NCBI GenBank assembly: GCA_017630195.1 | Contig: JAGBVS010000037.1 | Location: 1-62,908, forward strand | Origin: Bacteroidales bacterium | GTDB taxonomy: Bacteria > Bacteroidota > Bacteroidia > Bacteroidales > F082 | Direction: 5' to 3' | DNA: 62,908 bases | The notes under the pieces: generated by a model | Database searches by the model: none | The model's input: the letters and a program-made list of their open reading frames with translations, nothing else | Told to the model about the DNA's origin: nothing | Shown: piece by piece, positions 7,216 to 62,908 of the stretch | Position numbering within the stretch: the stretch's first letter is position 1 | Layout of the letters: each line of letters opens with the position of its first letter | Position numbers and translations under genes: made by a program

Positions 7216-9243
7216 ATGAACAAACACAAACTACCATCACGATCAAGAATTGCAAAATTCTTGGGTTTGGCTGCAATGGCAATTTGCATAACATCTTGTA
7301 ATCCAGTTGATCCCAACGCTGAACTTACAAATGTTATCATTAACAACAATAGTGCAGAGTTATCTAAACGTGTCACTATGTATGGAAAAACATCCTCTAA
7401 TAACGACAGAAGCGTTGCCTCTAAATTAATAATGCCAGAAGTTCCTACTCCGGAATATGAGTTAATCATGGATAACAACTATAAGGACTGGGCTGCTGAA
7501 GCAAAAAACTATTTACTTCCAAAAGGAACTGTACTGACTACAGGGATGCAGTTTAAGGATAACACATATTACATTGAAGGTGAGCTCACTATTACCAATT
7601 ATTGGGGAAAAGGAACACTTATCGTAATGCCTGGCGGCAAAGTAAACTATCCATCAAATATGCCTATCCATCAACTGAATATTTTAAGTTATGGAGAGTT
7701 TAACATCACAGGAAGCAATATTTTAAACATCAATTCAGGCTCAACAGTCATGATTTCCGGAGACTTCAGTTATCCTAAGTTATGGGTTGGCGGCAGTCTC
7801 TATGTAAGCGACGGATTGACCACATCAGCCATGGAAGTACGTGAACACGCTGTATGCCAAGTTGACTGCAGTACACAAGTAGATGAATATATGATTCTCC
7901 ACAATTATGCAGATTTCACTGTAGGAAGTTATCTTTCATCTCCATCAATAGAAATGAATTCTGCTTCAATATTACGAATAGAAGCAGGTAGCCTTGTAAG
8001 CACCGAATCTCTCTGTTTGAGAAACCCATGTACTGTTACAGTAAATGGCGGAGATCTCGAGTATGCTGTTCTTTCAGCTGACAAGATTGAGATTCACACA
8101 GGCAATATTAAAGAAATGTTTACAGGATGGCTTGACATTCATTATCAAGAAATTAACAATTACAGCGGCAAAGAATTGGAATGGCTTTCAAGCATCAAAT
8201 TAAATGGTGACACATATCTTACAGCCAACGGATGCCACCCTGAATTCGGCGAACAACCTGAAATTGAAACAGAACCAGTTGTTGGTCTTGAACACATAGC
8301 TCAAGTAGTAACACCAGACCATGGACACTACATTTCTTCAACTTGTATCCAAACAATGTCAGACATGGCATACGTATCATACCATACTCGCGGAGCTGAT
8401 TATCATGGCTGCATTGAAGTTTTGAACGTATCTGAAGATATGTGTTCTATTCTCTCATACATGGAACATCCAACACTTGATTTCAACCACTTGATTTTAG
8501 ACAACTCCAGAATCATTGCAGCTGGCGGCGAACCAAAGAATGGCGCATTCCTTGGTGTCATCAATTTAGGCGGTGGCATATTCCAAACCAATGATGCAGA
8601 ACTCAAACAAATAAAATTAGATGGAGCATCAGCAAGCTGCGTCATTCGCAACGGAAATTACTTACACGCAACAACCAACGAAGGTTATCACACACTCGAC
8701 GCTAATTCATTCAGCACAGTAGCTTCAATTCCTTCAGCAGGTTCTTCTAAGTTTATCAGTTCCGACGGAACAAATATGGGTGTAGTATCACTCACTGATA
8801 AAAATTCAGAACAATCATTAGCCGTTTTAAATATGTATAATGCTTCTGACTACACATTCAGCGATCCTAAACAAACCATCACATTAGACATTATTGCTCC
8901 AGTCAATGGCAAAAACGTTATGCATATTGAAGGCAACGACACCTATGTTTGCTTGGGTAAAAATGGTTTAAAACGTTATACCGACGGCGTTGAAGTTGCC
9001 GAGTTTAAAGTTAGCGGAGACACTATTGCTGCTGCAAACGGTTTGGCTGTTGATAATAAATATGTATATGTTGCTTATGGACACGGCGGTTTGTTTGTCC
9101 TTAACAAAACAGATTTGTCTGTAGTAGCATCATATAGTTACACAGGAGGAAAATCAGCCAACTATGTTACTGTATCTGATGACATTTTGTATGTAGCATA
9201 CGGACTTAGCGGCGTACAGATTTTCCGTTTGATTGAAAAATAA
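7216..9243 (+). CDS. Large lipoprotein: solenoid domain plus beta-propeller-like repeats
   Basis: A 675-residue lipoprotein: a charged N-terminus, hydrophobic core, then lipobox ITSC (Cys28). Residues about 110-340 carry short Gly/Asn-rich strands (GELTITNY, GEFNITGS, GSTVMISGDF) like a right-handed beta-helix. Residues about 355-675 carry repeats ending in phrases such as NKYVYVAYGHGGLFVLN and DDILYVAYGLSGVQIF, typical of LVIVD/propeller-like surface proteins. There is no T9SS C-terminal domain; anchoring is by lipid. It is a monocistronic gene with its own promoter and terminator. A role in adhesion or glycan binding is possible but not shown. Confidence 0.75.
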   Translation: MNKHKLPSRSRIAKFLGLAAMAICITSCNPVDPNAELTNVIINNNSAELSKRVTMYGKTSSNNDRSVASKLIMPEVPTPEYELIMDNNYKDWAAEAKNYLLPKGTVLTTGMQFKDNTYYIEGELTITNYWGKGTLIVMPGGKVNYPSNMPIHQLNILSYGEFNITGSNILNINSGSTVMISGDFSYPKLWVGGSLYVSDGLTTSAMEVREHAVCQVDCSTQVDEYMILHNYADFTVGSYLSSPSIEMNSASILRIEAGSLVSTESLCLRNPCTVTVNGGDLEYAVLSADKIEIHTGNIKEMFTGWLDIHYQEINNYSGKELEWLSSIKLNGDTYLTANGCHPEFGEQPEIETEPVVGLEHIAQVVTPDHGHYISSTCIQTMSDMAYVSYHTRGADYHGCIEVLNVSEDMCSILSYMEHPTLDFNHLILDNSRIIAAGGEPKNGAFLGVINLGGGIFQTNDAELKQIKLDGASASCVIRNGNYLHATTNEGYHTLDANSFSTVASIPSAGSSKFISSDGTNMGVVSLTDKNSEQSLAVLNMYNASDYTFSDPKQTITLDIIAPVNGKNVMHIEGNDTYVCLGKNGLKRYTDGVEVAEFKVSGDTIAAANGLAVDNKYVYVAYGHGGLFVLNKTDLSVVASYSYTGGKSANYVTVSDDILYVAYGLSGVQIFRLIEK

Positions 9244-9345: not shown

Positions 9346-10668
9346 TCACATACCTTCAATCTGTGCTAAATCAGATGTCTTCTTTGGGTTCCAAGAATCT
9401 TTATAAGAAGAGAAGAAGAACAATTCTTTGGTATGCGCTAACAAACGTGTGATACGCAAGAAATATCCTGTATAAAAAGTGCTGAAGAATAAATATGGCA
9501 TCAGCCTTTTTTCTTCAGATGACCTTTCTGACACCAACATGATAACACCAAATGCCACCAAAGAAAAACAATATCTAATCAACCATCCTACAATGAATAT
9601 TTCCATCAGTCTATCAGTCTGTGAGAAGACAAGCGACAACATATAGAACACCCAAAGATAATTGAATACACAATCAAAGAGAAGGTTTTCCACATTGGAA
9701 ATCCAGTTAAGGAAACTGAAGTGCTTATATGGCAGCAGTATGTCAAAATGCTTACGCAAACGGAAACGGATGAGCGATTTACTCCAACGCTGGCGTTGTT
9801 TGAAAAGAGCTTTCCACTTTACAGGCACATTAGTCATGCAGATGGCATCCTCGGCAAAGTAAACCTTATCACCGGATTTTCTTATTTTCTGTGTAATATC
9901 TCCATCCAATCCTGGACCAATATCCCACATACCGATCTGCATCAGTTTCTCGCGTTCGAAAGCTCCAAAAGCACCAGAAATAATATGGTAGATGCCCAAT
10001 GTGTTAGTTACCATACGACCCACTTGGATTGTCTTCAAGTATTCTAAGGCTTGCATTGATGTACATAGATTCTCTCCTGAGTTACGAACCTTCACGCAAC
10101 CTCCCACAGCCTTAATCTTTGGATCATAATAGAATGGTATGAGGATTTTTTCTATTGCGTCACGGTCTAAGGATGAATCGGCATCAAGATGAACAATATA
10201 CTTGCCTTTTGCATAATGAACACCAAAATTTGCTGCACTAGCCTTACCTCCACGCACATCGGAACGCAGATATAGATCAATATATCCAGCTTTCTCCAAA
10301 TCTCTACATATCAACGGAGTAGCATCATCAGAGCCATCATCTACGATAATAATCTCATAGTTTTTATAAGTCTGTTCACTGAGCGATTTCACTAACTTAT
10401 AGATATGCTTACCTTCATTTTTTCCTGGAGCCAAGATAGTTATCAGCGGATTCTCTATATATAGTTTCATCCTTGCCACTGCACGTTTTCGTTCTCTGCT
10501 ACGATAGGTGATTTTATACCAAATAGCAATGAGAAATTCTACCAGATAATAACGAGGGAATTCAATAATAAACAAGAACCAATAAGTATTGATTACAGCA
10601 CTCCATGACAGATTTCGAGTAAAACAAGCAACGATACTATCTATTATGTCAAAGCAGAAATCCAACAT
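9346..10668 (-). CDS. Processive GT2 polysaccharide synthase
   Basis: A 440-residue inner-membrane glycosyltransferase of the hyaluronan/cellulose/PNAG synthase type. An N-terminal membrane segment (about residues 24-52) precedes a GT-A domain with VDDGS (109-113), DAD (162-164), the catalytic-base region GLDGDIT (253-259) and QRQRW (291-295), the hallmark of processive enzymes. Three or four more membrane helices follow (about 315-420). The last gene of the set TolC-like, HlyD-like, TackOD1, GT2, 20 bases after its neighbour. It would polymerise a glycan from a nucleotide sugar while extruding it. No PilZ domain is present. The sugar cannot be told. Confidence 0.9.
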   Translation of the reverse strand: MLDFCFDIIDSIVACFTRNLSWSAVINTYWFLFIIEFPRYYLVEFLIAIWYKITYRSRERKRAVARMKLYIENPLITILAPGKNEGKHIYKLVKSLSEQTYKNYEIIIVDDGSDDATPLICRDLEKAGYIDLYLRSDVRGGKASAANFGVHYAKGKYIVHLDADSSLDRDAIEKILIPFYYDPKIKAVGGCVKVRNSGENLCTSMQALEYLKTIQVGRMVTNTLGIYHIISGAFGAFEREKLMQIGMWDIGPGLDGDITQKIRKSGDKVYFAEDAICMTNVPVKWKALFKQRQRWSKSLIRFRLRKHFDILLPYKHFSFLNWISNVENLLFDCVFNYLWVFYMLSLVFSQTDRLMEIFIVGWLIRYCFSLVAFGVIMLVSERSSEEKRLMPYLFFSTFYTGYFLRITRLLAHTKELFFFSSYKDSWNPKKTSDLAQIEGM

Positions 10669-10688
10669 ATTAGTTTATCTATCTTACA

Positions 10689-12098
10689 TCAATTAAGTTT
10701 GCTAATTCTACTGATGAAGGCATCTATCTTTTCACCATCGTACTGATACAGATAATCTTGGTCAACCACCTTTACGCCATCTTGTTTCAGTTCGACAATT
10801 CTCAACAGATCCAAATACTCTTCGTTCATCTGTTCTTTTAACATTTCAAGTTTGTCAGTCTGCACTTTTGCAGCTATATATATGTAGCGGTGATTATACG
10901 AAATGTTATGATAGTAGTATCTTTTCTGAAGATAGCTCACAAAGTCCATGATATTTTCTCTTTTTACCTCATTACCCTCAATCTTGAATCTATTGATAAG
11001 AACAGTCTCATTTTTTTCATGTGAATAAGAGAAGAGGCGTATCTGCGACAAGAATGAATCAAATCGTGAATAGCCTGACCAAATATCTTTACTTACAGCC
11101 AGCAATGCATCGTTTGATGATAGAGCTTTAAGACCTTCGTCAGTGAACTCATAGCTATATATATCTTGCGGCATCAACTCCATTGGTGTCATTGTTTTCA
11201 TGCAAGAAGTACAGTAAACCTTCATCCTTGTATGCAAGAATGTATGGTTACACTCTTGACATGTATATACGTTAGACGGGCGGTCATAATCCACGCCTAT
11301 ATGTCGTAGCATTTGGTGACATTTCGGGCAACGCAATTCACCATCATAGGCATAGCTTGATTCTGGAGAGATATTGGCACAGCGGAAGTGATGCAAGACA
11401 GGTTCTTCATTCAACAATGAAGACGAACACTTAGGACAAGCCTCCATATAAAACAGATGAGAACCTTTGCAATGTGGGCACACATGTATTCTTTCTATGA
11501 AGCTCTCTTGTTTGGCATATCCCAATTCGCACAAGGTATAATTGAATTGAACAAAATCTGCTTTCATATTCAAGAAGAGATTACTCTGCTGAGCGACAAA
11601 CAAGGCTGTATGTCCTTTAGCATAAGCTTCTTCCAATGATATAGTGAAATTATACATACCTCTCGATATGGCATACTTACACAATTTCAAGAAATACACA
11701 TAGTTGTTAGCCTTTACCTCTTTGATGTCAAAAAGTTCAATCAGGGCTAACTTGTCATAAATCTCTTCTATACGTTCGCTCATTTTTTCATCGTCGGGAG
11801 TGGAAACAAAACCATCTACCAATGGTTTTAATTGATATGCACGAGCGATTAGTGTAGAAGCCAAAAATCGAGGTTTCATGTGAGATTTAACGCCATGTAT
11901 TGACGATATATTCTGCAGCTGATATGATAGTTCATAGTGCGACTGGCCAGTATCTTCTATGAAAACCACATCGAAATCTTCCGACTTAACATCATTTATG
12001 GCATCTAAAGGAACAATTCCTTTTACTATAAGTATTTTGCGACCTTTAAGGTTCGTTTTAATCTTATAACTGTAATCCTTATAACTATAATCCATCAT
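10689..12098 (-). CDS. TackOD1-type zinc-ribbon protein
   Basis: A 469-residue soluble protein. A dense zinc-binding core spans about 205-300, with CxxC pairs at C207/C210, C221/C224, C257/C260, C280/C283 and C296/C299, plus HHFRC (C240). The core phrases (LHHFRCANISPES, LRCPKC, LRHIGVDYDRP) match what I know of the TackOD1 output domain, first noted in thaumarchaeal two-component proteins. Residues about 20-75 (KILIVKG...DVVFIED) look like a degenerate receiver-like Rossmann unit; the C-terminal 330-469 is unassigned. It overlaps the adaptor gene by four bases and precedes the synthase, so a regulatory role in glycan export is likely. Confidence 0.75.
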   Translation of the reverse strand: MMDYSYKDYSYKIKTNLKGRKILIVKGIVPLDAINDVKSEDFDVVFIEDTGQSHYELSYQLQNISSIHGVKSHMKPRFLASTLIARAYQLKPLVDGFVSTPDDEKMSERIEEIYDKLALIELFDIKEVKANNYVYFLKLCKYAISRGMYNFTISLEEAYAKGHTALFVAQQSNLFLNMKADFVQFNYTLCELGYAKQESFIERIHVCPHCKGSHLFYMEACPKCSSSLLNEEPVLHHFRCANISPESSYAYDGELRCPKCHQMLRHIGVDYDRPSNVYTCQECNHTFLHTRMKVYCTSCMKTMTPMELMPQDIYSYEFTDEGLKALSSNDALLAVSKDIWSGYSRFDSFLSQIRLFSYSHEKNETVLINRFKIEGNEVKRENIMDFVSYLQKRYYYHNISYNHRYIYIAAKVQTDKLEMLKEQMNEEYLDLLRIVELKQDGVKVVDQDYLYQYDGEKIDAFISRISKLN

Positions 12099-13273
12099 TC
12101 TCTTCCTCTGCTATTAAAATACAACCGATCTTTAAGTTCTTCCGGAACGTCCAAACCTTTCGGTGTTTTTAGCTGCATGTATTCATCCGGTTTTACGTCT
12201 TTGTAATCTCTGTTGTTAAAACGTATCAATACAGGCATGCCATTAACCAGCGACCAAAACGGGATTTTCTGTCCAGGATCAATACGCAACACTGCAATGG
12301 CAGCAGTATGGTTTTTAGACAAGTTGTTGCGATAAGCTTCCGGGATAGGCTCTGTTCGTGCGCCCATAGATACAACAGTTGCAGTATATTCCACATCATC
12401 ATTAACGATGACATTTGCTTTGAAGCCTCGGTTAATATATTTAGCTTTATCAGGTGTAACATACGCCATTATATACACATTGTCCTTTTCCAGGTCGAAA
12501 GACTGCGTCTCGATGACATCCTCGCCGCGCAACACTAATGAGTACTCTGAAATCCAGTTTCGAGTAACCAATCCGGAGTCAGCAGCAACGACATAGTGTA
12601 TAAGGCCCATATTTTTCATTTTCTTCTTGTTGCGTATGTTTTGTATTGTAAATCCTGCGCTTACCTCACTCAAACGATCTACAGCCTCTTGTGATTCTTC
12701 TATAGTCTTACGCATAACTTGTAATCTGCGTTGCAGAGCTTTGAGTTCTTCTTCTGTCTCTTTATAGTCACGTTCCAATTGAAGTTTATACGCATTATCG
12801 CTAAGACCAAAGCGAATATTATGATCTTCCAAGGCAATCTGCCGCTTGATTTCTTGTTTCTTTGCTTGCAAGACGGCTAAATTCTGATAAGCCAATCCAT
12901 ATTGTAACTTCAAGTCTCGTGAGTTCACTATAATTTCAGACTCCGTATTGATATTTCCGAGTTCGTGAAACCAATCTAACGACAGATATGAATATATGGT
13001 ATCGCCAGGCTTAATTAGGTCACCATTGTGCTTATAAATATCATATACAAATATATCCTCCGAAGCACGGAAACGTACATTATGCACAACCACATATCCA
13101 TTGAAATCAATATATACGACCTTACGAATACAATATAAGACTACAATTATTATAACTAAAGCGAATATAAATGCAAACAACGCCTGCTGCTTGTTTTGTT
13201 TCTTTTTTCGTTGCAGCAATATTTCTTCTATTTCAGCCTGTTCTTTATCGCTTGTAAAATGAAAATCTTTCAT
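12095..13273 (-). CDS. HlyD-like membrane fusion (adaptor) protein
   Basis: A 392-residue periplasmic adaptor. A cytoplasmic basic N-tail, one membrane helix (about 30-50) and a half lipoyl-type barrel (about 58-100, GYVVVHNVRFRASEDIFV) are followed by a long coiled coil (about 110-215, Lys/Glu/Leu-rich) and a C-terminal barrel with EYTATVVSMG. This is the build of HlyD, EmrA and the alginate protein Alg44, which bridge an inner-membrane machine to an outer-membrane channel. There is no PilZ domain ahead of the helix, unlike Alg44. Two bases separate it from the TolC-like gene and it overlaps the TackOD1 gene by four. No ABC ATPase is encoded nearby, so the export motor is probably the synthase. 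Confidence 0.88.
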   Translation of the reverse strand: MKDFHFTSDKEQAEIEEILLQRKKKQNKQQALFAFIFALVIIIVVLYCIRKVVYIDFNGYVVVHNVRFRASEDIFVYDIYKHNGDLIKPGDTIYSYLSLDWFHELGNINTESEIIVNSRDLKLQYGLAYQNLAVLQAKKQEIKRQIALEDHNIRFGLSDNAYKLQLERDYKETEEELKALQRRLQVMRKTIEESQEAVDRLSEVSAGFTIQNIRNKKKMKNMGLIHYVVAADSGLVTRNWISEYSLVLRGEDVIETQSFDLEKDNVYIMAYVTPDKAKYINRGFKANVIVNDDVEYTATVVSMGARTEPIPEAYRNNLSKNHTAAIAVLRIDPGQKIPFWSLVNGMPVLIRFNNRDYKDVKPDEYMQLKTPKGLDVPEELKDRLYFNSRGRE

Positions 13274-13275
13274 AA

Positions 13276-14649
13276 CTATTTATTCTCATTTTTTAAATTA
13301 CAAAAATCAAATACAGATTGTTGAAGTAGCAACACTTGCAAGTCTGCAATGCAACAATCTCTCTTATATTGGTATGAATAATAATTTTCCCAACATGTCA
13401 GATAGTGGTTATACTCCTTAATCCTCGATATGAAATTATATTCACCAACATGTCCTTGATAGTTTTCTCTACGAAGCAACATATATTCCCTCAATACTTC
13501 GATACGTTTAAGTTCTCCAGCTAATCCTCTGTTAGCCCTTTCTATTTCAAGCAGGATAGTCTCTACCTCTTCCATCAACAAGGCTGTTTGTTCTTCTTTT
13601 TCCATTGTTTTCTGCAAGCGTTCAGCTGTCAGTGCTTTTTTCTTGCGATATTCTTGTGCTGAAAGTGGTATTTGAAATGAAATGCCCATATCTAAGTTTG
13701 ACGAGTTCGTCATTTCAGGACGCATATAGTATGAATATCTTAAAAACGGTGATAATCCCAATGAAGTCCAATAGCCTGCACTCTCTTCCTTTTGTCGAAG
13801 AATCTCCAATTGCAGATCTAAAGTATGCAACTGCAATGCATTTTCTCGTATATAACTCTTTAATCGAGCAGTATCGATCTGTATAGTCACACCACCTTGT
13901 GGTCGCACCAATTGAGACGCTATAGGATAATCTTCTGGTATAGACTCTAACAATCGTTCAGCTATCGCCTGCTCATCCATAAGTTTCAACAATTCATCAG
14001 TACCGATGCTGCGGTCAGAAACCAAATACATCTGTGCATCTGTCAACAACTGAAGATTATTGATACGGAGTTTCAGAACGCTTACAAGGAGACTATCATA
14101 CTCTTTGCGTAAGTATTCCTTTTGACGTTCTATTATTTGGTTTGCATACTCCTGTTCCAAAGACACACGCTCGAGCTCACCCATAAGAGACAACTCTCTG
14201 AGTCGCTCTTTTCGGTTAATGAGCGAACTATTCATAATATTCCATCTCAGTTCGGCTTGCGCTTTTACCGAATAAACAGCCAAAGCATCATCCTCGTCAT
14301 AATCCACTCCGAGTTCTTGACCTGCTCGATAATAAGTCTGTCCCGAAAAAACCAGACCTGTTTCGGCTTTCAGTGCATATTGTTGACTTTCAACTTTTGC
14401 ATCGATAAGCGAGTCCATAGCATTCACTCCCATTCTCTGAGAAGCTGTATCCATTGCTATTGGTCCGAAATCGGTTGTAGTCGGAACATGCCGAAAAATC
14501 AGCGTGTCCAACATTTTGAAATGCGTTTCGAATCGTTTAAACAGCGTTTCATCTTTTCTAAGAGACTGAGCGTTAACAGACGAAAAGGATAATATTGAGA
14601 GAATCAATAGTATTATGAAGATTGCCGATGATTCTTTTAACAATTTCAC
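13276..14649 (-). CDS. TolC-like outer-membrane channel protein
   Basis: A 457-residue protein with a signal peptide (about 1-28, ending VNAQ) and the long amphipathic helical segments of outer membrane efflux proteins (about 130-225 and 345-430). A beta-rich stretch in between (LSPFLRYSYYMRPEMTNSSNLDMGISFQIPL) fits the membrane barrel strand. Such trimers form an outer-membrane duct that docks onto an HlyD-type adaptor, which is the next gene. It is the first gene of the four-gene export set. Its start lies 17 bases after the small ferredoxin gene, so it may be read through from the longer operon. Confidence 0.85.
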   Translation of the reverse strand: MKLLKESSAIFIILLILSILSFSSVNAQSLRKDETLFKRFETHFKMLDTLIFRHVPTTTDFGPIAMDTASQRMGVNAMDSLIDAKVESQQYALKAETGLVFSGQTYYRAGQELGVDYDEDDALAVYSVKAQAELRWNIMNSSLINRKERLRELSLMGELERVSLEQEYANQIIERQKEYLRKEYDSLLVSVLKLRINNLQLLTDAQMYLVSDRSIGTDELLKLMDEQAIAERLLESIPEDYPIASQLVRPQGGVTIQIDTARLKSYIRENALQLHTLDLQLEILRQKEESAGYWTSLGLSPFLRYSYYMRPEMTNSSNLDMGISFQIPLSAQEYRKKKALTAERLQKTMEKEEQTALLMEEVETILLEIERANRGLAGELKRIEVLREYMLLRRENYQGHVGEYNFISRIKEYNHYLTCWENYYSYQYKRDCCIADLQVLLLQQSVFDFCNLKNENK

Positions 14650-14666
14650 GATTTAGAAATTATATA

Positions 14667-14927
14667 TTATATAAATGTCTTATATTCTTCATAGTTCCTT
14701 ATCAACAAGTTAGGTATATCTAACCTATGAGGGCATCTGCCTTTACATAAATTACAACGTAGGCAGTTTTCTATTCTTTTCATCTTAGTTTTCCATTCTT
14801 CTGTCAGATATTCTTCAAACGATTCGCCACGTAAGAAAAGATTCATTCTTGCGCAATCGCTGATTTTTATACCGGCAGGACATGGCATACAACGTCCACA
14901 TCCGCGACAGATTTCTTCTGTTGACAT
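14667..14927 (-). CDS. Small 2x[4Fe-4S] ferredoxin-like protein
   Basis: An 86-residue protein holding two cysteine clusters: C7-x2-C10-x2-C13-x2-C16-P and C55-x2-C58-x2-C61-x3-C65-P. The spacing and context (CMPCPAGIKISD...CLRCNLCKGRCPHRLDIP) match the C-terminal iron-sulfur domain of [4Fe-4S]-containing aldo/keto reductases (COG1453 type), but the reductase barrel is absent. It is not a stranded fragment: its ATG overlaps the TGA of the Gate-domain gene by one base (TGATG), so it is translationally coupled to that membrane protein. It may pass electrons to or regulate that protein; unproven. Confidence 0.8.
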   Translation of the reverse strand: MSTEEICRGCGRCMPCPAGIKISDCARMNLFLRGESFEEYLTEEWKTKMKRIENCLRCNLCKGRCPHRLDIPNLLIRNYEEYKTFI

Positions 14928-16066
14928 CAGAATATCATTGAAAACAGAACGTACAACCAGTGAGCTGCGACACCTGCAACGAGTCCGCCTACAGTGTGAG
15001 CCAAGATAGCTTTAGATGTGAGGCTACGGAATCCGAGTGAGTCGAGCATAGCTGTATGTGTGCTAAGATAACCGCTCCAGCACATACCCATAGCTGTGAA
15101 AACAGCGATAGCGTTGCCGTTGATGATTCCTTCTTGGATAAAACGTGGAATCAAGCCGAGAGCTGCTCCAACAGCACCGAGGGCTGTGATAGGGAATGCT
15201 ACTAATTGTGGGTTTTCAAAACCGAACAACCACTTGAATACGAAGTTAATTTTTTCAGCGAGATATGGCAATAAAGCAACACCTTCGTAAGCACCGCCTT
15301 GATATCCGCCTTCAGGAGCGCCGAATGTGAGCATCATAACAACTGTTGAAATAATGAGAACACCAGGAATGATAGCAAGACCGATTTCAACACCTGACTT
15401 GCCGCCGTCGAGGATAGCATTCAAGAAACGTAAGAATGCGCTGCCTTCTGACTTGAAAGAAATTTGTTGCTCATCACCTTCTTTGTCGCTGATTTCTGCA
15501 TTGAGTTCAGGGTTAGATTTCAAGATGAAACGTTGCATCAAACGTGTTGAAACGATACTACCGATAACAGCGCCGAGTAAACCAACCAATGCTGCTGGCA
15601 AAAAGCCTTTACCCATCATAAACATAATCACGACGAGACCCATGCCGAAAGCTGTACCGAAGTTTGTTAAAGAAATAAGTTGGTATTTTTTAAAATAACG
15701 TGCGAAGTGAGCGTCTTTAGAAAGACTGATGATGGCTGGGTTGTCTGACAAGAATGTCATGATGCCGCCGAGAGCAGCAACGCCTGGAAGGTTGTATAAA
15801 GGTTTCATGAGAGGACGAAGCACGACTTCAATCAAACGTACCACGCCAAATTCGACTAACAAATTACCCAAAGCACCTGACACAACAGTGATAGCCATGA
15901 TGTAAAATACTGTTTCTAACAATAAGCTGTAAGCTGTCTGCATAATGGTGTTCATCATGTTAGGCAAGCCCATTTTACTTCCAAGATAGCCGAAGAATCC
16001 GAAGAATATCAGTAAGAAGACAACAGCTTCTATACGGCGTTTGGTTAAAAATTTCATGTTTTTCAT
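14927..16066 (-). CDS. Gate-domain (nucleoside-recognition) membrane protein
   Basis: A 379-residue polytopic inner-membrane protein with about 9-10 hydrophobic helices and two Gate-type halves. Each half has a conserved re-entrant phrase: GGIMTFLSDNPAIISLSKD (about 100-118) and MCWSGYLSTHTAMLDSLG (about 327-344). It resembles the CD0519/CD1768 membrane proteins related to spore maturation and nucleoside transporters. The substrate is unknown. It is coupled to a 4Fe-4S protein by a one-base overlap and follows a porin gene by 28 bases. The N-terminal MKNMKF offers two ATGs, three codons apart. Confidence 0.75.
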   Translation of the reverse strand: MKNMKFLTKRRIEAVVFLLIFFGFFGYLGSKMGLPNMMNTIMQTAYSLLLETVFYIMAITVVSGALGNLLVEFGVVRLIEVVLRPLMKPLYNLPGVAALGGIMTFLSDNPAIISLSKDAHFARYFKKYQLISLTNFGTAFGMGLVVIMFMMGKGFLPAALVGLLGAVIGSIVSTRLMQRFILKSNPELNAEISDKEGDEQQISFKSEGSAFLRFLNAILDGGKSGVEIGLAIIPGVLIISTVVMMLTFGAPEGGYQGGAYEGVALLPYLAEKINFVFKWLFGFENPQLVAFPITALGAVGAALGLIPRFIQEGIINGNAIAVFTAMGMCWSGYLSTHTAMLDSLGFRSLTSKAILAHTVGGLVAGVAAHWLYVLFSMIF

Positions 16067-17180: not shown

Positions 17181-20100
17181 TTATTTTTTAATCAGCTTTC
17201 CTGTTTTGACATATTCTCCGCATCTGACGAAATATGTGTAAACACCAGAAGGAAGTCTTTCAAGGTTTAATGTCATCCTACCACAACTGCCTCTGAGTTC
17301 CTCTTTAATAACATTGATACCGAGTGCATTTGTGATGACTAACTCAGCCTTGCTATAGTCAGCTGGCAATGTATATTCTACCTCACTCCATGCTGAGGCT
17401 GGATTTGGAGCTAAATTTACGTTTACCCCCATAGCATCTGCAATATTTGTCTGAATATTGACTCTTCCTCTGCTTGAATTTGAAACTGATGGCAATGTCG
17501 GACATGTTGCTCTTAAAGTCATTGTCTCATCGTTCTGCGCCAAGATAGAATATGCCATCGTCTGTGAGTTGCCGTTGCCGTTTTCTACAATCTCTTCTAC
17601 CATAAGAGTCTCCTCTTCTGTCAATTCTATAATACTGCGACCGCTTTCATATAATGTCTCATATAATCTTACAAGTGTCATATAATCGTTATGTTCTATG
17701 AGTTCAGCACCTTTTAAGTTATAGACGTAAGGTAATATCTCAGCTAAAGCAAGTGCATTTGCAAAATCACCTTCTTGTATGTATGAGGCAACTATAAGAC
17801 GGTCTGACGCCATATCGTTCATGTTTGCCAGCCATGTTCTCAACTCTTCATTGTCTGACTCTTCACCGTTAAGGTTGCTTCTGACAATGTCACCTGCGGC
17901 GAGAAGATATTCTCTTTCTGACTTCGCCATTTGTGATTCCAATGCCGTACGTGCTGTTGTGCCATTAGCCATCTCTCTCAACAACTCAGTCATATACTGA
18001 GGCATTGGGTTATTTTTGTTTTCAAGATAGCTGATAAGAGTGTCTTTCTTTAATTCGTCCGGATTGGCAGATAGGATCTCAAACAAGACTGACGAAGAGA
18101 ACACGTCTTCACGTTGTGCAGCTGTTGTAAGAACTTCATTTGACAGATAAGGAGAAAGGCCTAACAGCTCTGAACGTAATCTCATTGCATCATTAGCAGT
18201 TGCGGTGTTGATGTCCAAAACTTCAGCCTGAGTGTTGCCGCCGTCTATTCTGCTTGTGTAAAGATTGTTCAGCTCGGTAAATGCGTTGAGTGAAATCTTA
18301 TATTCGCTTTGAAGTTCATTAATCTCCTCTGCTGTCCTTGTGATTGTATTATTGCCACCGCCGTAGTGAGAAATACATAAATTTGGATTCGATGTGGCAA
18401 TGGTTAAAACTCGATACCATTTTAAGTTTGCAGGTTGTTGAAGAGAATCATTATTATAATAACAATAATTTATTATATCATCTCCAGCATTGTAGAATTG
18501 ATATTGAGAAGCAGAAAATGTATTGCCAGCAGCTTCCAAATATGAACCTTGATAACCTGCAATACCATTTGCAATGGCTGTCTCATCTCTAATAACACAG
18601 AAATCATTTATATTACTTTCATTGGTGTTACACAAATATACAAGACCTTTTTGTTTTGAACTACTAGCAACTATTGATTTTCCATTGTTTCCCATAGATA
18701 AATTTCCACATGTAAGATTATGGAAATGGTTCTTATATATATTGTTGTTATATGCACCCGAGTTACTGACTAATATTCCATACGTATCGTTGTTAGGCCG
18801 AGCGTTTCCATAAAAGTTATTTTCCTCTATACAGAACTCAACAGCACCATTTATATATACGCCGAAGCTACAATCAGACTTACTACCCACATTAAATTCA
18901 TTGCCAACTATTGTGGCATATCCTGCATTTTCTACATAAATCCCTTTTTCGTTATTATTAAATTTGGAGTTTCTAACTATAAAAGTACGTACAACACTTC
19001 CATCATTAGATGACAAAACGCCATAAGTAAAACCAGTAAATGTGGTACGAACAAGGTCATCTTCAGGACATGGTAAATAATTTGAATCACAATAGGAATC
19101 CACCATAAAGCCCGCATTATAAGCTGCAATACCAGATGTCCATGGTGTTACCTGAGGAACATTTCTGTCAACAGAAAACAAACATCCTGAGAATACTATA
19201 CCTCTAACCCTATCAAGGTCAACATGCTTGTAGAATAGTTCATCACCGATGTAATTTCTGTCTATTGTGAAGGTACAGTTACGGAAATGTGAATCATACG
19301 GCATCTCGTTTCCATTACCAGGATTGAAGTTTGTGTAATTTATGGCATGAACAGCTTTTGCGTTATTACGGAACACTGCGTCAGTAGCATAAACGACACC
19401 GCCTTCGCTACTATAATTACTAGGATTCCACAACTCAACGGCACATATAGCATTTTCAATAGTTGCACCGTTTTTGAGTTCTAAATATCCTTGTTGACGT
19501 TTTCCGTTTATAATATACTGATGTTCACTGTCGTTACCCCACACTTGTATACCTTGCCATTTTTTATCAGAAGCTGAATTTGTCATAACACCACCGTTTA
19601 TAACAAGACTTCCACCAGGTTTAATTACGGTTTTGGCATTATCATTGTTTCTCACTTCTCCTGTAAGCATTACTGTTGCGCCCTCATTTATTACAAAACC
19701 ATCGGAAACAATCATACCTGATAAGGTAGTAGTTGGTATTGTGAGATCTATTTCCTTCTTTACGGTGTAATAGTTGTCGCATGTATATGCGAATGTGAAT
19801 GTTAAGATTGCTTTAGGAGCAAGATATGAGAGTGTAGATTTATACGAAAGATTAGCTATATTTCCCGATCCTGATGACTGACTGAACATCTCTGCTGGCT
19901 CAACACTCCAACTACATGAGTATGGAATTACATTTGGGGTAAATGTATAAGTAGCGTTTCCAACAAACACATCTGGGCCGTCTATCTGAGTATTTGCAAT
20001 ACGACGATAATAAGTGTAAACAGATGACCCCATTGCAATGCCATCCATATTGACAACATCGTGTTTATGATGTTTTGTCAAAGGACCATTGCCCCACTTT

Positions 20101-20591
20101 GATATTAATGTATCTTGATTAACGACAATAGAGGAGTGTTCTGATTCATTATCCAAAATAGTATGAGTATAATCAGTGTACTTACGTACTACAGCGATGT
20201 CACCATAATTGAGATTATTTATGTCAGTAATTTCAACGAATGAACCGTCACATATTTCTTTAAACCATGTTATCTTGCATGGTATTGTTCCTTGTGAAAT
20301 ACCAAAACTATATCCATGGCAATTATAGGTTGGTGTTGCTTCTCCTATTATTGTATGGTTGGAATAATCATCCAAATAACGTTCTTGAATGAATGTTTTT
20401 TCATATCTGGTATAATCTTTACTATCTATAGTAACAACCCATTTATCATCAATCTCATTACTACTCCCATGCTTACCAGGATTATATTGTTCTCCAGATA
20501 ATGTGCAAAAATAATAAGGATCACCATCTCCGAATTGAGCAAATGCACTAATATATGGTAATAATAGTATTAAAAGTAATATCTTTTTCAT
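17181..20591 (-). CDS. T9SS-exported beta-helix protein with NCHGY cysteine-hydrolase-like domain
   Basis: An 1136-residue secreted protein. After a signal peptide (about 1-19), residues about 80-180 hold YNCHGYSFG (C91), then GDIAVVR, EHSSIVV (H152) and SKWGNGPLTKHH, an order recalling NlpC/P60- or CHAP-like Cys-His hydrolases. Residues about 290-720 are parallel beta-helix-like (repeated NNxF/VVNN phrases, inverting-type lyase fold). About 750-1030 is helical. The end (NLAPNPASAW...GVYTYFVRCGEYVKTGKLIKK region) is a type A T9SS sorting domain, so the protein is carried across the outer membrane and attached or released at the surface. Catalysis is inferred from motif order only. Confidence 0.75.
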   Translation of the reverse strand: MKKILLLILLLPYISAFAQFGDGDPYYFCTLSGEQYNPGKHGSSNEIDDKWVVTIDSKDYTRYEKTFIQERYLDDYSNHTIIGEATPTYNCHGYSFGISQGTIPCKITWFKEICDGSFVEITDINNLNYGDIAVVRKYTDYTHTILDNESEHSSIVVNQDTLISKWGNGPLTKHHKHDVVNMDGIAMGSSVYTYYRRIANTQIDGPDVFVGNATYTFTPNVIPYSCSWSVEPAEMFSQSSGSGNIANLSYKSTLSYLAPKAILTFTFAYTCDNYYTVKKEIDLTIPTTTLSGMIVSDGFVINEGATVMLTGEVRNNDNAKTVIKPGGSLVINGGVMTNSASDKKWQGIQVWGNDSEHQYIINGKRQQGYLELKNGATIENAICAVELWNPSNYSSEGGVVYATDAVFRNNAKAVHAINYTNFNPGNGNEMPYDSHFRNCTFTIDRNYIGDELFYKHVDLDRVRGIVFSGCLFSVDRNVPQVTPWTSGIAAYNAGFMVDSYCDSNYLPCPEDDLVRTTFTGFTYGVLSSNDGSVVRTFIVRNSKFNNNEKGIYVENAGYATIVGNEFNVGSKSDCSFGVYINGAVEFCIEENNFYGNARPNNDTYGILVSNSGAYNNNIYKNHFHNLTCGNLSMGNNGKSIVASSSKQKGLVYLCNTNESNINDFCVIRDETAIANGIAGYQGSYLEAAGNTFSASQYQFYNAGDDIINYCYYNNDSLQQPANLKWYRVLTIATSNPNLCISHYGGGNNTITRTAEEINELQSEYKISLNAFTELNNLYTSRIDGGNTQAEVLDINTATANDAMRLRSELLGLSPYLSNEVLTTAAQREDVFSSSVLFEILSANPDELKKDTLISYLENKNNPMPQYMTELLREMANGTTARTALESQMAKSEREYLLAAGDIVRSNLNGEESDNEELRTWLANMNDMASDRLIVASYIQEGDFANALALAEILPYVYNLKGAELIEHNDYMTLVRLYETLYESGRSIIELTEEETLMVEEIVENGNGNSQTMAYSILAQNDETMTLRATCPTLPSVSNSSRGRVNIQTNIADAMGVNVNLAPNPASAWSEVEYTLPADYSKAELVITNALGINVIKEELRGSCGRMTLNLERLPSGVYTYFVRCGEYVKTGKLIKK

Positions 20592-45087: not shown

Positions 45088-48000
45088 TTATTCGATAACA
45101 ATCTTTTCTGTTACATTCATTTCTGAATTTCTGATATTGACAAAATACAATCCGGAATTGATATTGTCAAGTTTAATGTCAGCCTTATTGCTTAATCCTG
45201 CATTTTGATATACCACTTGTCCCATTGTATTGTAAATTGTCACAACGCTTTCCTTATCACCAAGTTCAATGCAGAATGCGCCATTGTTAGGATTAGGATA
45301 GACTTCGATATTTTGTTCTACTACTGTTTCAACGTCAACGACAACTGCTGTTGGAGGGAATTTGATATTGTCGAGCCATACGCAGTCTTCACCTTCATCA
45401 TATCCATAATCTTTGCTATATTCCCATCTTAAAGTATGAGTACCAGCTGACAACATATATGTTTCCTTGCTCCAGTCGATTTCGCCTGACCATTCGCCTT
45501 TCTTGCTATTGTCAACATAGAAGTTAAACATATCGTAACTCAATTCTGATGACACTTTTTTGTAGAAACTTATCTCTGAATCTTGTTTCACTTCAACAAC
45601 TATTTTCAATCTTGTAACATTATCACCACCAATAGTTCCCGATTTGACTGAATATTGTCCATCATAAACTTTGTCAGTTGCTATAGTCCAGTCAGCGTCA
45701 CCTTCAAACTCCCAGTTGTATGCTGAGAAGTCGCCTGATTCAAAATCTTCTGTCACGCTACCGACAATAAATGTATATGAAGATGTTGTCATATAATTTC
45801 CAGAATAAGCAGCTATTACCATTTCGTAAGCTGTACCTATTTCAGCGTTTTCATTTACTGCGAATGTAAAGTCAACATCAGAATTTGCACCAGACTCTAA
45901 AGTATTGATATAGAATATATCTTCCTCAGCTGTTGTTTCTGGGAAAGAGCAGAACACTCTGAATACTGTGTTAGATGCTGCGCTGTTACCTTTGTTGACA
46001 ACATTGAATTTAACTGTTGCGGTCTCACCTGGATTCACTTCAACAGAAACAGGTTTTACGATTTCCAATTCCGGTGCGTAAATCTTTGTGCTGAGTTTGC
46101 TTGTCCAAGTATCGTTGCCATTGCTACAAGTGATAAAGAATTTAACGTCAGTATTGTTAGGAACGTTGTCGCTTACTTTGAAAGAGAAAGCATCTTCGAT
46201 AGTTACATTAGACTCTGCATTGAGATCTCCAATGTTTGCTGTGGCATTTGTTATTTCAATATATTCAGGTTTATCTGTTGATAATGTTGCTGTTAAATTT
46301 TCAGCATCAATAGTTCCAACATTAGCGAATGTCATATCCATTGTGACAGATTCGTTATAATCGATTTGATTATTGTCGTCGTTAAGCGCATATTCATTAT
46401 AAACTACATAAGCGGCATTGTTAGGAAGAGCAACTACATCCAATACAACAGGATAAGCGTTGAGGCCTGTCACGTAGAGTTTCATGTCACCGACGACATT
46501 AAGACCGCCATCGAAAGTGATTTCCGCAACGCCATCTTCGTCTGTCACGGCAAAGCCAATCACATCATCTTCAAACACCAAGCTGCAGCGGAAACCTTTT
46601 TGAGTTTTGTTGTTATTATCTTTAACGACGACTTCCATTGAAGGATCGCCTAATAATATTTCTTCTTGGCACTGAATATCAGCTTCGTATGGTTCATCGA
46701 GCCAAGGAATTATAGCGACGTCACCCAAGATGTTCAAGTCATAGAAATTCCATCTGAGAGCACCTTCTTCCCATTGTCCAGGAGCGTTGACGAAAGGAGC
46801 AGTCTGACATTTGGCATCAGACAATTGCATTCCGAGGAAAGGGATACGGTCGTTATATTGAGCATCGACCATTTCTCTATGAAGGTGAGCTGCCGGTCCT
46901 TCTGTCTGTCCTTCATTAAACCAACCGTTACGTGAGTTACCTATAGCTGCGACTGCAAAGTTTTGAATCGTAATCATTCTTTCCATGATACAATCTGCTT
47001 CAAAAGAGCCACATACGCAACCATGTGAATGGAAGAAAGTATAATTATGATCAACGCCATTAGCCCCGCTGAAATTAGAGTCAGTGATGTCGCTGTTGTA
47101 CCATTCTGCTACAGTATTTGTGTTGGCATGACCAACATGTTGAACATATTGAACACCGCCATTGATTGTATTTTTCAATTTGTTAGGTCCCCAATTGCCA
47201 TTTTCATCATAATGACGTATAAAGTTGTAATCTTCTGGAATACCTATTGTTGTGTAACCATTATCATCATGTTCGCCGATAAGAAGCTCAAGATAATCGC
47301 TGCCGAATGTTTGAGGATTATCAAACAACCATTCGCCACCCATAGCGACTTTTCTAAACTCACCCAAAACAGGTTCACGTCTGTATTTCAATGTCTTATT
47401 GATAATATTAGCTTGTTTTTTTGAATTATCGAACGACATACGAGCGATGCCAATTTCTGGGAGCAAGTCGTCTTCGCCTATCTCACCCCACTTGCTGTTG
47501 TTATTGTCGTTCCATGTACCGTCGAGAGCGCTGAAATAAAGGTCTGCTGGGATATTGCTATCAGTATAAACACTGCTACTTTGAACAGTGGCATATAATC
47601 CACGATAAGGGACAATATTGACATCGCCGCCCATCAACACCATGATGATACCATTGTCGGCATATTCCTTAATGATATAATTACGAATTTTTTCTTGGTT
47701 ATCTGCTCCTTGTGATGAAGTGTAAATATCAGTTAATGTGACTATTCTATTACGAACGCCTATGCTTTCATAATATTCCATATATTCCTCAAAACCAGCC
47801 ACATAATCCTCACCAGTAATAATAAGCAGATCGTAAGCGCTTATGTCTCTACCTCTTGTCTTATATGAGCTGATCATTTCTGGATTGTCTGCCAATGACT
47901 GAACCTTACTGTTTATATAAGGAGTATTCCACAACATTGCAGAATTGTCTCTTTTTGCAGAAACAACATCAACCTTTACAGTTGCAGTCTTTGCGTAAAA

Positions 48001-48471
48001 TATCTTTCCTGAAGATGGTTCATATTGAACAGGGGTGAAAGAAGTGAAAGCAAAAGCGTGACCATTAAGATATTGTGTCGTCAACACACCGTGATTTTCT
48101 TGAGGATAAACGCTTTTTGAAGAATATATATCTTCATTCTTCACGAAAGCCTTGCGTTCCGGCTTTGAATATGGACGCGCTGCCTGATATGGAAACAGCT
48201 GTTTATCCAATTTAATCTCTTCAAAATCAGAGAGAACAACTTCAACAGAAGCTGCTTCAGAACCATTAGGCAACAACAAACTTACAGCCTTATAAGGCAA
48301 TGACGGATTGCCTTCGACTGCTGTCTGCATACATCCTTTAAACTCAAGTTGATTATAGCCTTGTATTTCGCTAACTACAGGATTTTCAAAGTGATATACT
48401 TGTTCAACAGTTTGAGCTGAAACAAATAAAGCTATCATTGATAAAAATAGTAAAAAACTGATTTTTTTCAT
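45088..48471 (-). CDS. C25 (gingipain-family) peptidase exported by T9SS
   Basis: An 1127-residue secreted protease. A signal peptide (about 1-19) is followed by a propeptide-like region to about 205. The C25 caspase-fold domain (about 210-600) has YVQHVGHANTN (His448) and FFHSHGCVCGSFE (Cys485), the expected His-Cys dyad of gingipains. Ig/CARDB-like repeats (about 700-900), a MAM/jelly-roll-like carbohydrate-type domain (about 910-1035) and a type A T9SS domain (EVYPNPNNGAF onward, about 1055-1127) complete it. Cleavage preference is not evident. Single gene, promoter box at 48507. Confidence 0.9.
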   Translation of the reverse strand: MKKISFLLFLSMIALFVSAQTVEQVYHFENPVVSEIQGYNQLEFKGCMQTAVEGNPSLPYKAVSLLLPNGSEAASVEVVLSDFEEIKLDKQLFPYQAARPYSKPERKAFVKNEDIYSSKSVYPQENHGVLTTQYLNGHAFAFTSFTPVQYEPSSGKIFYAKTATVKVDVVSAKRDNSAMLWNTPYINSKVQSLADNPEMISSYKTRGRDISAYDLLIITGEDYVAGFEEYMEYYESIGVRNRIVTLTDIYTSSQGADNQEKIRNYIIKEYADNGIIMVLMGGDVNIVPYRGLYATVQSSSVYTDSNIPADLYFSALDGTWNDNNNSKWGEIGEDDLLPEIGIARMSFDNSKKQANIINKTLKYRREPVLGEFRKVAMGGEWLFDNPQTFGSDYLELLIGEHDDNGYTTIGIPEDYNFIRHYDENGNWGPNKLKNTINGGVQYVQHVGHANTNTVAEWYNSDITDSNFSGANGVDHNYTFFHSHGCVCGSFEADCIMERMITIQNFAVAAIGNSRNGWFNEGQTEGPAAHLHREMVDAQYNDRIPFLGMQLSDAKCQTAPFVNAPGQWEEGALRWNFYDLNILGDVAIIPWLDEPYEADIQCQEEILLGDPSMEVVVKDNNNKTQKGFRCSLVFEDDVIGFAVTDEDGVAEITFDGGLNVVGDMKLYVTGLNAYPVVLDVVALPNNAAYVVYNEYALNDDNNQIDYNESVTMDMTFANVGTIDAENLTATLSTDKPEYIEITNATANIGDLNAESNVTIEDAFSFKVSDNVPNNTDVKFFITCSNGNDTWTSKLSTKIYAPELEIVKPVSVEVNPGETATVKFNVVNKGNSAASNTVFRVFCSFPETTAEEDIFYINTLESGANSDVDFTFAVNENAEIGTAYEMVIAAYSGNYMTTSSYTFIVGSVTEDFESGDFSAYNWEFEGDADWTIATDKVYDGQYSVKSGTIGGDNVTRLKIVVEVKQDSEISFYKKVSSELSYDMFNFYVDNSKKGEWSGEIDWSKETYMLSAGTHTLRWEYSKDYGYDEGEDCVWLDNIKFPPTAVVVDVETVVEQNIEVYPNPNNGAFCIELGDKESVVTIYNTMGQVVYQNAGLSNKADIKLDNINSGLYFVNIRNSEMNVTEKIVIE

Positions 48472-54206: not shown

Positions 54207-54210
54207 ACCG

Positions 54211-54218
54211 CAAAGATA
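54211..54218 (-). promoter_or_regulatory. -7 box directly before murF-alr ATG
   Basis: CAAAGATA (minus TATCTTTG) is a full TAnnTTTG match. Only four bases separate it from the ATG, so the transcript would start at or beside the A of ATG (leaderless). Confidence 0.55.
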
Positions 54219-54295
54219 GGAAAATTGACCGAAGATAAGAGCTGAAATATGAAAGTTTTTCAACTTTCGTACGATTTTATTCTATTCAAAAAGCT

Positions 54296-62788: not shown

Positions 62789-62908
62789 ATGAATCACAAA
62801 GCAGGTTATGTAAACATTATAGGCAAGCCAAATGTCGGAAAATCAACGCTTATGAACGAATTCGTAGGCGAAAAAATTTCTATCGTAACATCGAAAGCAC
62901 AGACCACA
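62789..62908 (+). CDS. era: Era GTPase (partial, N-terminus)
   Basis: The first 40 codons of a GTPase of the Era family: [20 protein letters not shown] contains the P-loop GKPNVGKST (about residues 12-20), followed by [20 protein letters not shown], where the final TSKAQTT matches Era's switch I. Era binds 16S rRNA and helps assemble the 30S subunit. The gene runs off the window. The related GTPase EngA/Der is less likely because of SKAQTT. Confidence 0.92.

Follow-up and report, generated by a model that had tools for sequence, protein, structure and literature searches.

What is made by a locus in which an outer-membrane duct, a periplasmic adaptor, a TackOD1 protein and a membrane glycosyltransferase are encoded within a few bases of one another? 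The question is raised by contig JAGBVS010000037.1 of a Bacteroidales bacterium, probably from the gut (lineage F082; GenBank assembly GCA_017630195.1), analysed here from position 1 to position 62,908 (62,908 nucleotides, hereafter the window). The four genes form a conserved module, and sequence comparisons indicate that it is probably a synthase-dependent glycan secretion machine. In the mechanism that we propose, an inner-membrane family-2 glycosyltransferase (GT2) would polymerise a sugar nucleotide and pass the chain across the inner membrane, a HlyD/EmrA-like adaptor would span the periplasm and connect to a TolC-like duct that would release the polymer from the cell, and the soluble TackOD1 protein would serve the synthase as its dedicated subunit for control or coupling, the proteins presumably assembling into a complex. 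The four genes and the parts of the TackOD1 protein are the following:

13276..14649, minus strand: TolC-like outer-membrane duct; intact open reading frame (ORF) of 457 amino acids (aa), with a GTG start and a hydrophobic N-terminal segment
12095..13273, minus strand: HlyD/EmrA-like periplasmic adaptor; intact ORF of 392 aa, with a single strongly hydrophobic stretch (residues 31-49)
10689..12098, minus strand: TackOD1 protein, probable control or coupling subunit; intact ORF of 469 aa, with a PF18551 match
11148..11573, minus strand: TackOD1 core (PF18551), residues 176-317 of the TackOD1 protein
10692..11147, minus strand: C-terminal part of the TackOD1 protein, residues 318-469, sitting in the alignment where relatives have a GGDEF-like domain
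9346..10668, minus strand: membrane GT2 glycosyltransferase of 440 aa, with VDDGS, DAD, GDIT and QRQRW

Much of the original prediction, which had been made from the DNA letters and their translations, held at this level. It had described four tightly packed genes, and the intact minus-strand ORFs are transcribed in the order TolC-like, HlyD-like, TackOD1 and GT2 with intergenic spacings of 2, -4 and 20 bases. It had listed the motifs of a processive synthase, which we located in the GT2 as VDDGS (residue 109), DADSS (162), GDITQ (256) and QRQRW (291), and it had noted the absence of PilZ and of an ATP-binding cassette (ABC) ATPase, neither of which was matched in any of the four window proteins in Pfam and NCBIfam scans. 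Type I secretion was discarded as a label because its defining ABC transporter was unmatched in the four genes in those scans. The zinc-ribbon protein, which had been called only TackOD1-like, is a true member of that family: it matches PF18551 with an E value of 1.5e-43 (148.9 bits, against a curated cut-off of 32) and carries five CxxC pairs (C207/210, C221/224, C257/260, C280/283 and C296/299) and one HxxC (H237xxC240), the cysteine pattern described for TackOD1 (PMC5847659). All 11 cysteines of this pattern and its HxxC histidine are unchanged in 24/24 aligned Bacteroidota rows, window included, and together with the PF18551 match this rules out a misnamed zinc protein.

The GT2 itself belongs to PF00535 (E 5.9e-27) and combines this fold family with the D, DxD, D and QxxRW by which processive GT2 synthases are recognised; the catalytic D, DxD, D and QRxRW are retained in all 40 aligned GT2 rows. 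Its best NCBIfam relative is PgaC/IcaA (TIGR03937), as it is for each of the four members scanned, namely the window GT2 and three relatives (139-156 bits). The PgaC/IcaA label was rejected, the window protein scoring 150.3 bits against an equivalog cut-off of 422.3. It is unlikely that the enzyme is non-processive and that the HlyD and TolC proteins export a short oligosaccharide or glycolipid made by it. The small size of these enzymes (~440 aa) would suit such a role, as would NodC, an oligosaccharide synthase that the window GT2 and three other members each have among their weaker NCBIfam matches, but the QRxRW motif in 40/40 rows and the polymer synthase PgaC/IcaA as best relative of all four members scanned argue, if indirectly, for a processive enzyme.

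Evidence that the four genes belong together comes from their conservation. PF18551 was searched in relatives, genus, phylum and order, with the window's genome included in every count, and was found over the cut-off in 4/100 relatives, 12/395 genomes across the phylum and 12/393 genomes across the order. Four matches below the cut-off (G047, G045, G086 and G092) were excluded from all counts, and no GT2 of the module family was found in the corresponding stretches (L055-L058); locus L059 was counted once as L032, its phmmer scores being identical to those of G053:C60. Neighbourhoods were read for 26 distinct TackOD1 genes of Bacteroidota: that of the window, 24 in other genomes and one in record L060. 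A GT2 of the same family directly adjoins TackOD1 on the same strand in 26/26, with gaps of -26 to +39 bases. All 26 loci also hold a HlyD-family gene, upstream within three genes in 25 and downstream in L052, and 24 hold a TolC-family gene, the two that miss it (L048 and L050) stopping at a contig edge. Conversely, a search with the GT2 (E up to 1e-50) of the 393 order genomes returned exactly the 12 TackOD1 genomes, that is 12/12 against 0/381 others (Fisher 4e-23, uncorrected for relatedness), which with the 26/26 adjacency rules out a chance neighbourhood. The distances of TackOD1 and GT2 correlate with an r of 0.89 over 24 distinct loci, a value to which shared species history adds; the best of 1000 shuffles gave 0.25. 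Scans of viral contigs found no relatives.

The pair extends beyond Bacteroidota. Among 72,556 plasmid records, tblastn found matches in 21, of which the best 20 were read (15 bacterial plasmids or chromids and 5 haloarchaeal), the unannotated Photobacterium stretches through their ORFs. TackOD1 directly precedes a GT2 in 15/15 bacterial records. An annotated HlyD comes next in 10 of them (Plesiomonas, Aminobacter x2, Phyllobacterium x3, Rhodobacteraceae M382, Alisedimentitalea and Aeromonas x2, where it stands behind TolC); going by annotation, the HlyD position is 'hypothetical' in Palleronia, Roseibium and Methylocystis x2 and unannotated in Photobacterium. Annotated TolC genes lie nearby in only four of the 15 (Aeromonas x2 and Methylocystis x2), and Aeromonas caviae pKAM329_3 carries the whole four-family set in one stretch. 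The expectation that the four families are conserved together is thus supported by the Bacteroidota adjacency, by the TackOD1-GT2 pairs of the proteobacterial records and by the full set in Aeromonas. In the reverse direction, the window GT2 matched 114 plasmid records, of which the best 60 were examined. The top 13 of the matches listed are all TackOD1-linked and outrank PgaC and IcaA; the two Aeromonas records rank lower, and among these matches the bit scores of the weakest TackOD1-linked GT2s overlap with those of other GT2s. Two side observations concern Rhodobacterales: the Alisedimentitalea TackOD1 gene is annotated as two pieces (L073:5878-7163), with a single ORF in the same context in Rhodobacteraceae M382, and galE lies directly 3' of HlyD in two loci (L072:9523-10533 and L073:9522-10532), a hint at the sugar used. 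Archaeal TackOD1 response regulators share the domain, with its five CxxC and one HxxC, and differ in that it serves there as an output domain of obscure function (PMC5847659) and that 4/5 haloarchaeal plasmid records hold no glycosyltransferase in the stretch read. The Halorussus record (L080:4950-7911), in which a short TackOD1 protein is followed by DUF2334 and a GT2, hints at a TackOD1-GT2 link in archaea.

The names of the two export proteins of the window rest on family profiles and not on direct Pfam matches. The alignment profile of the HlyD family matches EmrA structures at 2e-16, and NCBIfam gave the window protein a single weak match, far under its cut-off (16.8 of 156 bits). For the TolC-like protein NCBIfam gave no match; the window-clade profile aligns with that of the TolC family at the other loci in hhalign (98.8%, E 6e-17), and a member of that family, L038, matches PF02321 (OEP) at 2e-11. 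The TolC alignment found no match among solved structures, which weighs against the TolC identity. In the larger TolC set, 13/20 rows are at least 670 aa long and carry an additional domain at the C-terminus. This domain weakly resembles GH18 in L038 (3.9e-5, below cut-off), and its Aeromonas counterpart is recognisably alike; the window protein is without this extension seen in many relatives. Relatives with the fused domain lie at L038:5541-7670, L049:5073-7664 and L082:8215-10299, and that of L049 additionally carries a SPOR domain.

These profiles bear on another explanation, in which the locus serves EmrA/HlyD-TolC tripartite efflux or a type I path for other cargo, with the inner-membrane pump encoded elsewhere and the GT2 glycosylating the carrier or the cargo. 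The adaptor profile is indeed nearest to EmrA, a partner of MFS (major facilitator superfamily) pumps, and the Plesiomonas HlyD falls in TIGR00998 (NCBIfam). However, the constant partner of the adaptor is a GT2 (26/26) and not a pump, and an ABC transporter is unmatched in the four genes, so that we consider this explanation quite improbable and retain glycan secretion as the preferred reading.

How would such a machine be controlled? Hydropathy shows no hydrophobic segment in the TackOD1 protein of the window, which is therefore probably cytosolic. On the evidence of sequence, its family is one of signalling proteins, among which a receiver and a degenerate GGDEF domain are frequent. Pfam finds GGDEF C-terminal of TackOD1, above the cut-off, in three gammaproteobacteria (Plesiomonas 1.4e-10, Aeromonas 1.6e-8 and Photobacterium 4.7e-7). 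In four sequences inspected by eye (L061, L082, L067 and L071), the GGDEF signature is degenerate. A profile of the 24 Bacteroidota TackOD1 rows matches GGDEF structures at 3e-7 across its C-terminal part, and C-termini of the Bacteroidota proteins that lie outside the window clade match gammaproteobacterial ones at 91% (three rows) and a set of four gammaproteobacterial and one Rhodobacteraceae rows at 95%. For the window itself, a GGDEF-like identity of residues 318-469 is suggested by their position.

At the other end, a receiver-like N-terminal stretch is present in 6/24 aligned Bacteroidota rows (by Pfam in L038 and L039, by alignment in the others), and the Palleronia and Roseibium proteins likewise begin with one. 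Exactly the six receiver-bearing Bacteroidota loci have a separate gene for a protein of 106-119 aa directly upstream. A profile of these small proteins matches the N-terminal domain that TackOD1 proteins without a receiver carry (99.3%, E 2e-20), and this N-terminal piece therefore occurs either fused or free; the N-terminus of the window-clade proteins matches the same domain at 94.6%. We use 'pseudo-receiver' for it as a positional name only. Homology with receivers found no support, as profiles give no link to true receivers (0.2%). Nor was there support for a pseudo-receiver in the Roseibium and Palleronia proteins, in the stretch that separates the receiver from TackOD1 (0.9-2%).

Since relatives can carry a receiver in front and a degenerate GGDEF behind, the family probably senses phospho-signals and cyclic di-GMP (c-di-GMP), in line with reports on Shewanella MxdA, and the TackOD1 protein family seems to come from c-di-GMP control. 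The view that the regulator is simply a metal-binding protein outside c-di-GMP signalling therefore finds no support in its original form, and the gene set also resembles Shewanella mxdABCD. The proposed contrast with c-di-GMP-controlled exporters survives at most for the lineage of the window. In the window's genome, which is 84% complete, no GGDEF and no PilZ were found by searches that were positive in 8/14 and 5/14 control genomes, respectively, and c-di-GMP control is accordingly unlikely there. As neither receiver nor GGDEF is detectable in the protein and no GGDEF or PilZ gene was found in the genome, control in this Bacteroidales lineage has probably shifted to other signals.

Shewanella mxdABCD is the closest described system. 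MxdA has a degenerated GGDEF domain (PMC3409153); as an effector it binds c-di-GMP and interacts with CheY3 (PMC7666153, PMC11395469); MxdB is a membrane glycosyltransferase, MxdC is efflux-pump-like and MxdD is left without an assigned function in PMC3691769, where mxdA and mxdB mutants are deficient in aggregation and biofilm formation. The likeness thus lies in a degenerate-GGDEF effector beside a membrane glycosyltransferase and an efflux-like protein, with a putative exopolysaccharide as product. The window too encodes an effector, a GT2 and a HlyD/efflux-like protein together, and the order mxdA-B-C is that of TackOD1-GGDEF, GT2 and HlyD in Plesiomonas. We therefore regard the module as probably kin of Mxd. 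There is about an even chance that it is more than kin, namely a Bacteroidota branch of the known Shewanella biofilm system in which MxdA is a TackOD1 protein and only the apparent loss of c-di-GMP sensing is new. That explanation is compatible with the mechanism proposed here and differs from it on novelty. The properties of MxdA, MxdB and MxdC and the Plesiomonas order speak for it. However, a TackOD1 domain in MxdA is a guess, the order in the window (TolC, HlyD, TackOD1, GT2) is different, no mxdD counterpart was identified in the window, GGDEF is undetectable in the window effector although present in relatives, with no GGDEF or PilZ found in its genome, and PMC8683041 instead has c-di-GMP acting through MxdB.

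Two further systems share parts of the proposed path. In cyanobacterial cellulose synthesis, export through XcsA-XcsB-TolC, that is a GT2 synthase, a HlyD-like adaptor and a TolC-like duct, is proposed and experimentally unproven (PMC12430437). There, XcsA has a PilZ domain, XcsC is an endoglucanase, the genes are scattered in T. vulcanus, and TackOD1 is not mentioned in the part of the paper available. The Xcs label was not adopted, PilZ being found neither in the window GT2 nor in the genome (control 5/14). The rhizobial mixed-linkage glucan proteins BgsA-BgsB likewise pair a GT2 synthase with a HlyD-like-domain protein under c-di-GMP control, but the C-terminus of the synthase binds c-di-GMP, and neither TolC nor TackOD1 is mentioned in the available part of PMC9495663. 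No description of TackOD1 with this gene set was found in the titles and opening abstracts of the papers listed, in a search that left most subscription papers outside. Mxd resembles the set, and a GT2-HlyD-TolC path has already been proposed for cyanobacteria. The original picture of a minimal, differently regulated glycan secretion machine is supported in part, by the conserved gene set and a probably cytosolic TackOD1 protein, and weakened by c-di-GMP-linked relatives and by the Mxd and Xcs precedents.

Several observations weigh against the reading as a dedicated secretion module with a signalling subunit. The module is rare even in the genus of the window (PF18551 over the cut-off in 2/60 genomes, window included), the window HlyD and TolC proteins gave no Pfam match with an E value of 0.01 or below, and 11/15 bacterial plasmid records have no annotated TolC near the set, in gene tables that are incomplete. 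The distance and co-occurrence correlations are uncorrected for shared species history. As for the domain plan, most alphaproteobacterial TackOD1-protein C-termini match the GGDEF region at just 27-48%, and GGDEF homology was undetected for the window-clade C-terminus (hhalign 0.5-1.4%).

The module may have further parts, and a candidate lies next to it:

7216..9243, plus strand: predicted lipoprotein of 675 aa with lipobox-like ITSC, convergent neighbour of the module and possible fifth part

Relatives of this protein are found within three genes of the module in 12/26 Bacteroidota loci, window included, and 9 of these 12 have a loose lipobox pattern. Of the 314 order genomes searched, a relative occurs in 11, and TackOD1 is present in 9 of the 11 (conservative Fisher 2e-13, with G793, G796 and G818 possibly outside the 314-genome draw); in 7 of those 9 the gene is on contigs other than that of the module. 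The window protein has no Pfam or NCBIfam match, and 'LVIVD-like' is an informal label, the best Pfam LVIVD match (relative L037, 0.057) being under the cut-off. The 675-aa lipoprotein family may thus be a fifth part of the module. A clue to the sugar comes from a nucleotide-sugar dehydrogenase in 6/26 Bacteroidota loci. Two scanned with NCBIfam are nearest to TviB, under its cut-off (485 and 463 versus 592), and the nearest solved structure to that of L060 is UDP-ManNAcA dehydrogenase, which suggests that the product of the dehydrogenase-bearing loci could contain an N-acetylhexosaminuronic acid. The window's genome has a 57% identical dehydrogenase on a different contig.

Elsewhere in the window, the same-strand upstream neighbour of the set (14927-16066) encodes a membrane protein of the NCBIfam CD0519/CD1768 family (575 bits). 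A 1136-aa protein (17181-20591) has a type IX sorting-tail match under the cut-off (0.00018), a C25-family peptidase with propeptide and type IX secretion sorting tail lies at 45088-48471, and a single 855-aa protein at 51696-54263 fuses a Mur ligase with an alanine racemase.

One can tentatively go further and speculate, though this is less likely than not, that a separate class of glycan secretion machines, spread across phyla, depends on TackOD1. As an obligate coupling subunit, TackOD1 would provide a zinc-ribbon platform for the GT2 and would read signals through exchangeable end domains (phosphate by the receiver, or c-di-GMP by the degenerate GGDEF). In Bacteroidales with no detectable c-di-GMP genes these inputs would have been replaced, and an outer lipoprotein of the 7216-9243 family would take part in the exit route. 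If MxdA belongs to the TackOD1 family, the receiver fusions of its relatives would explain the binding of CheY3 to MxdA in Shewanella. The locus would also give an operon encoding the full GT2-HlyD-TolC set, a path hitherto only proposed for cyanobacteria, and would exemplify such a module persisting in a genome in which no GGDEF or PilZ gene was found. What is novel here is a probable variant of synthase-dependent exopolysaccharide secretion in which an orphan domain is tied to a testable machine: the function of TackOD1 was termed obscure in a 2018 survey (PMC5847659), and its co-occurrence in bacteria with one GT2 subfamily and an export path makes that function directly testable.

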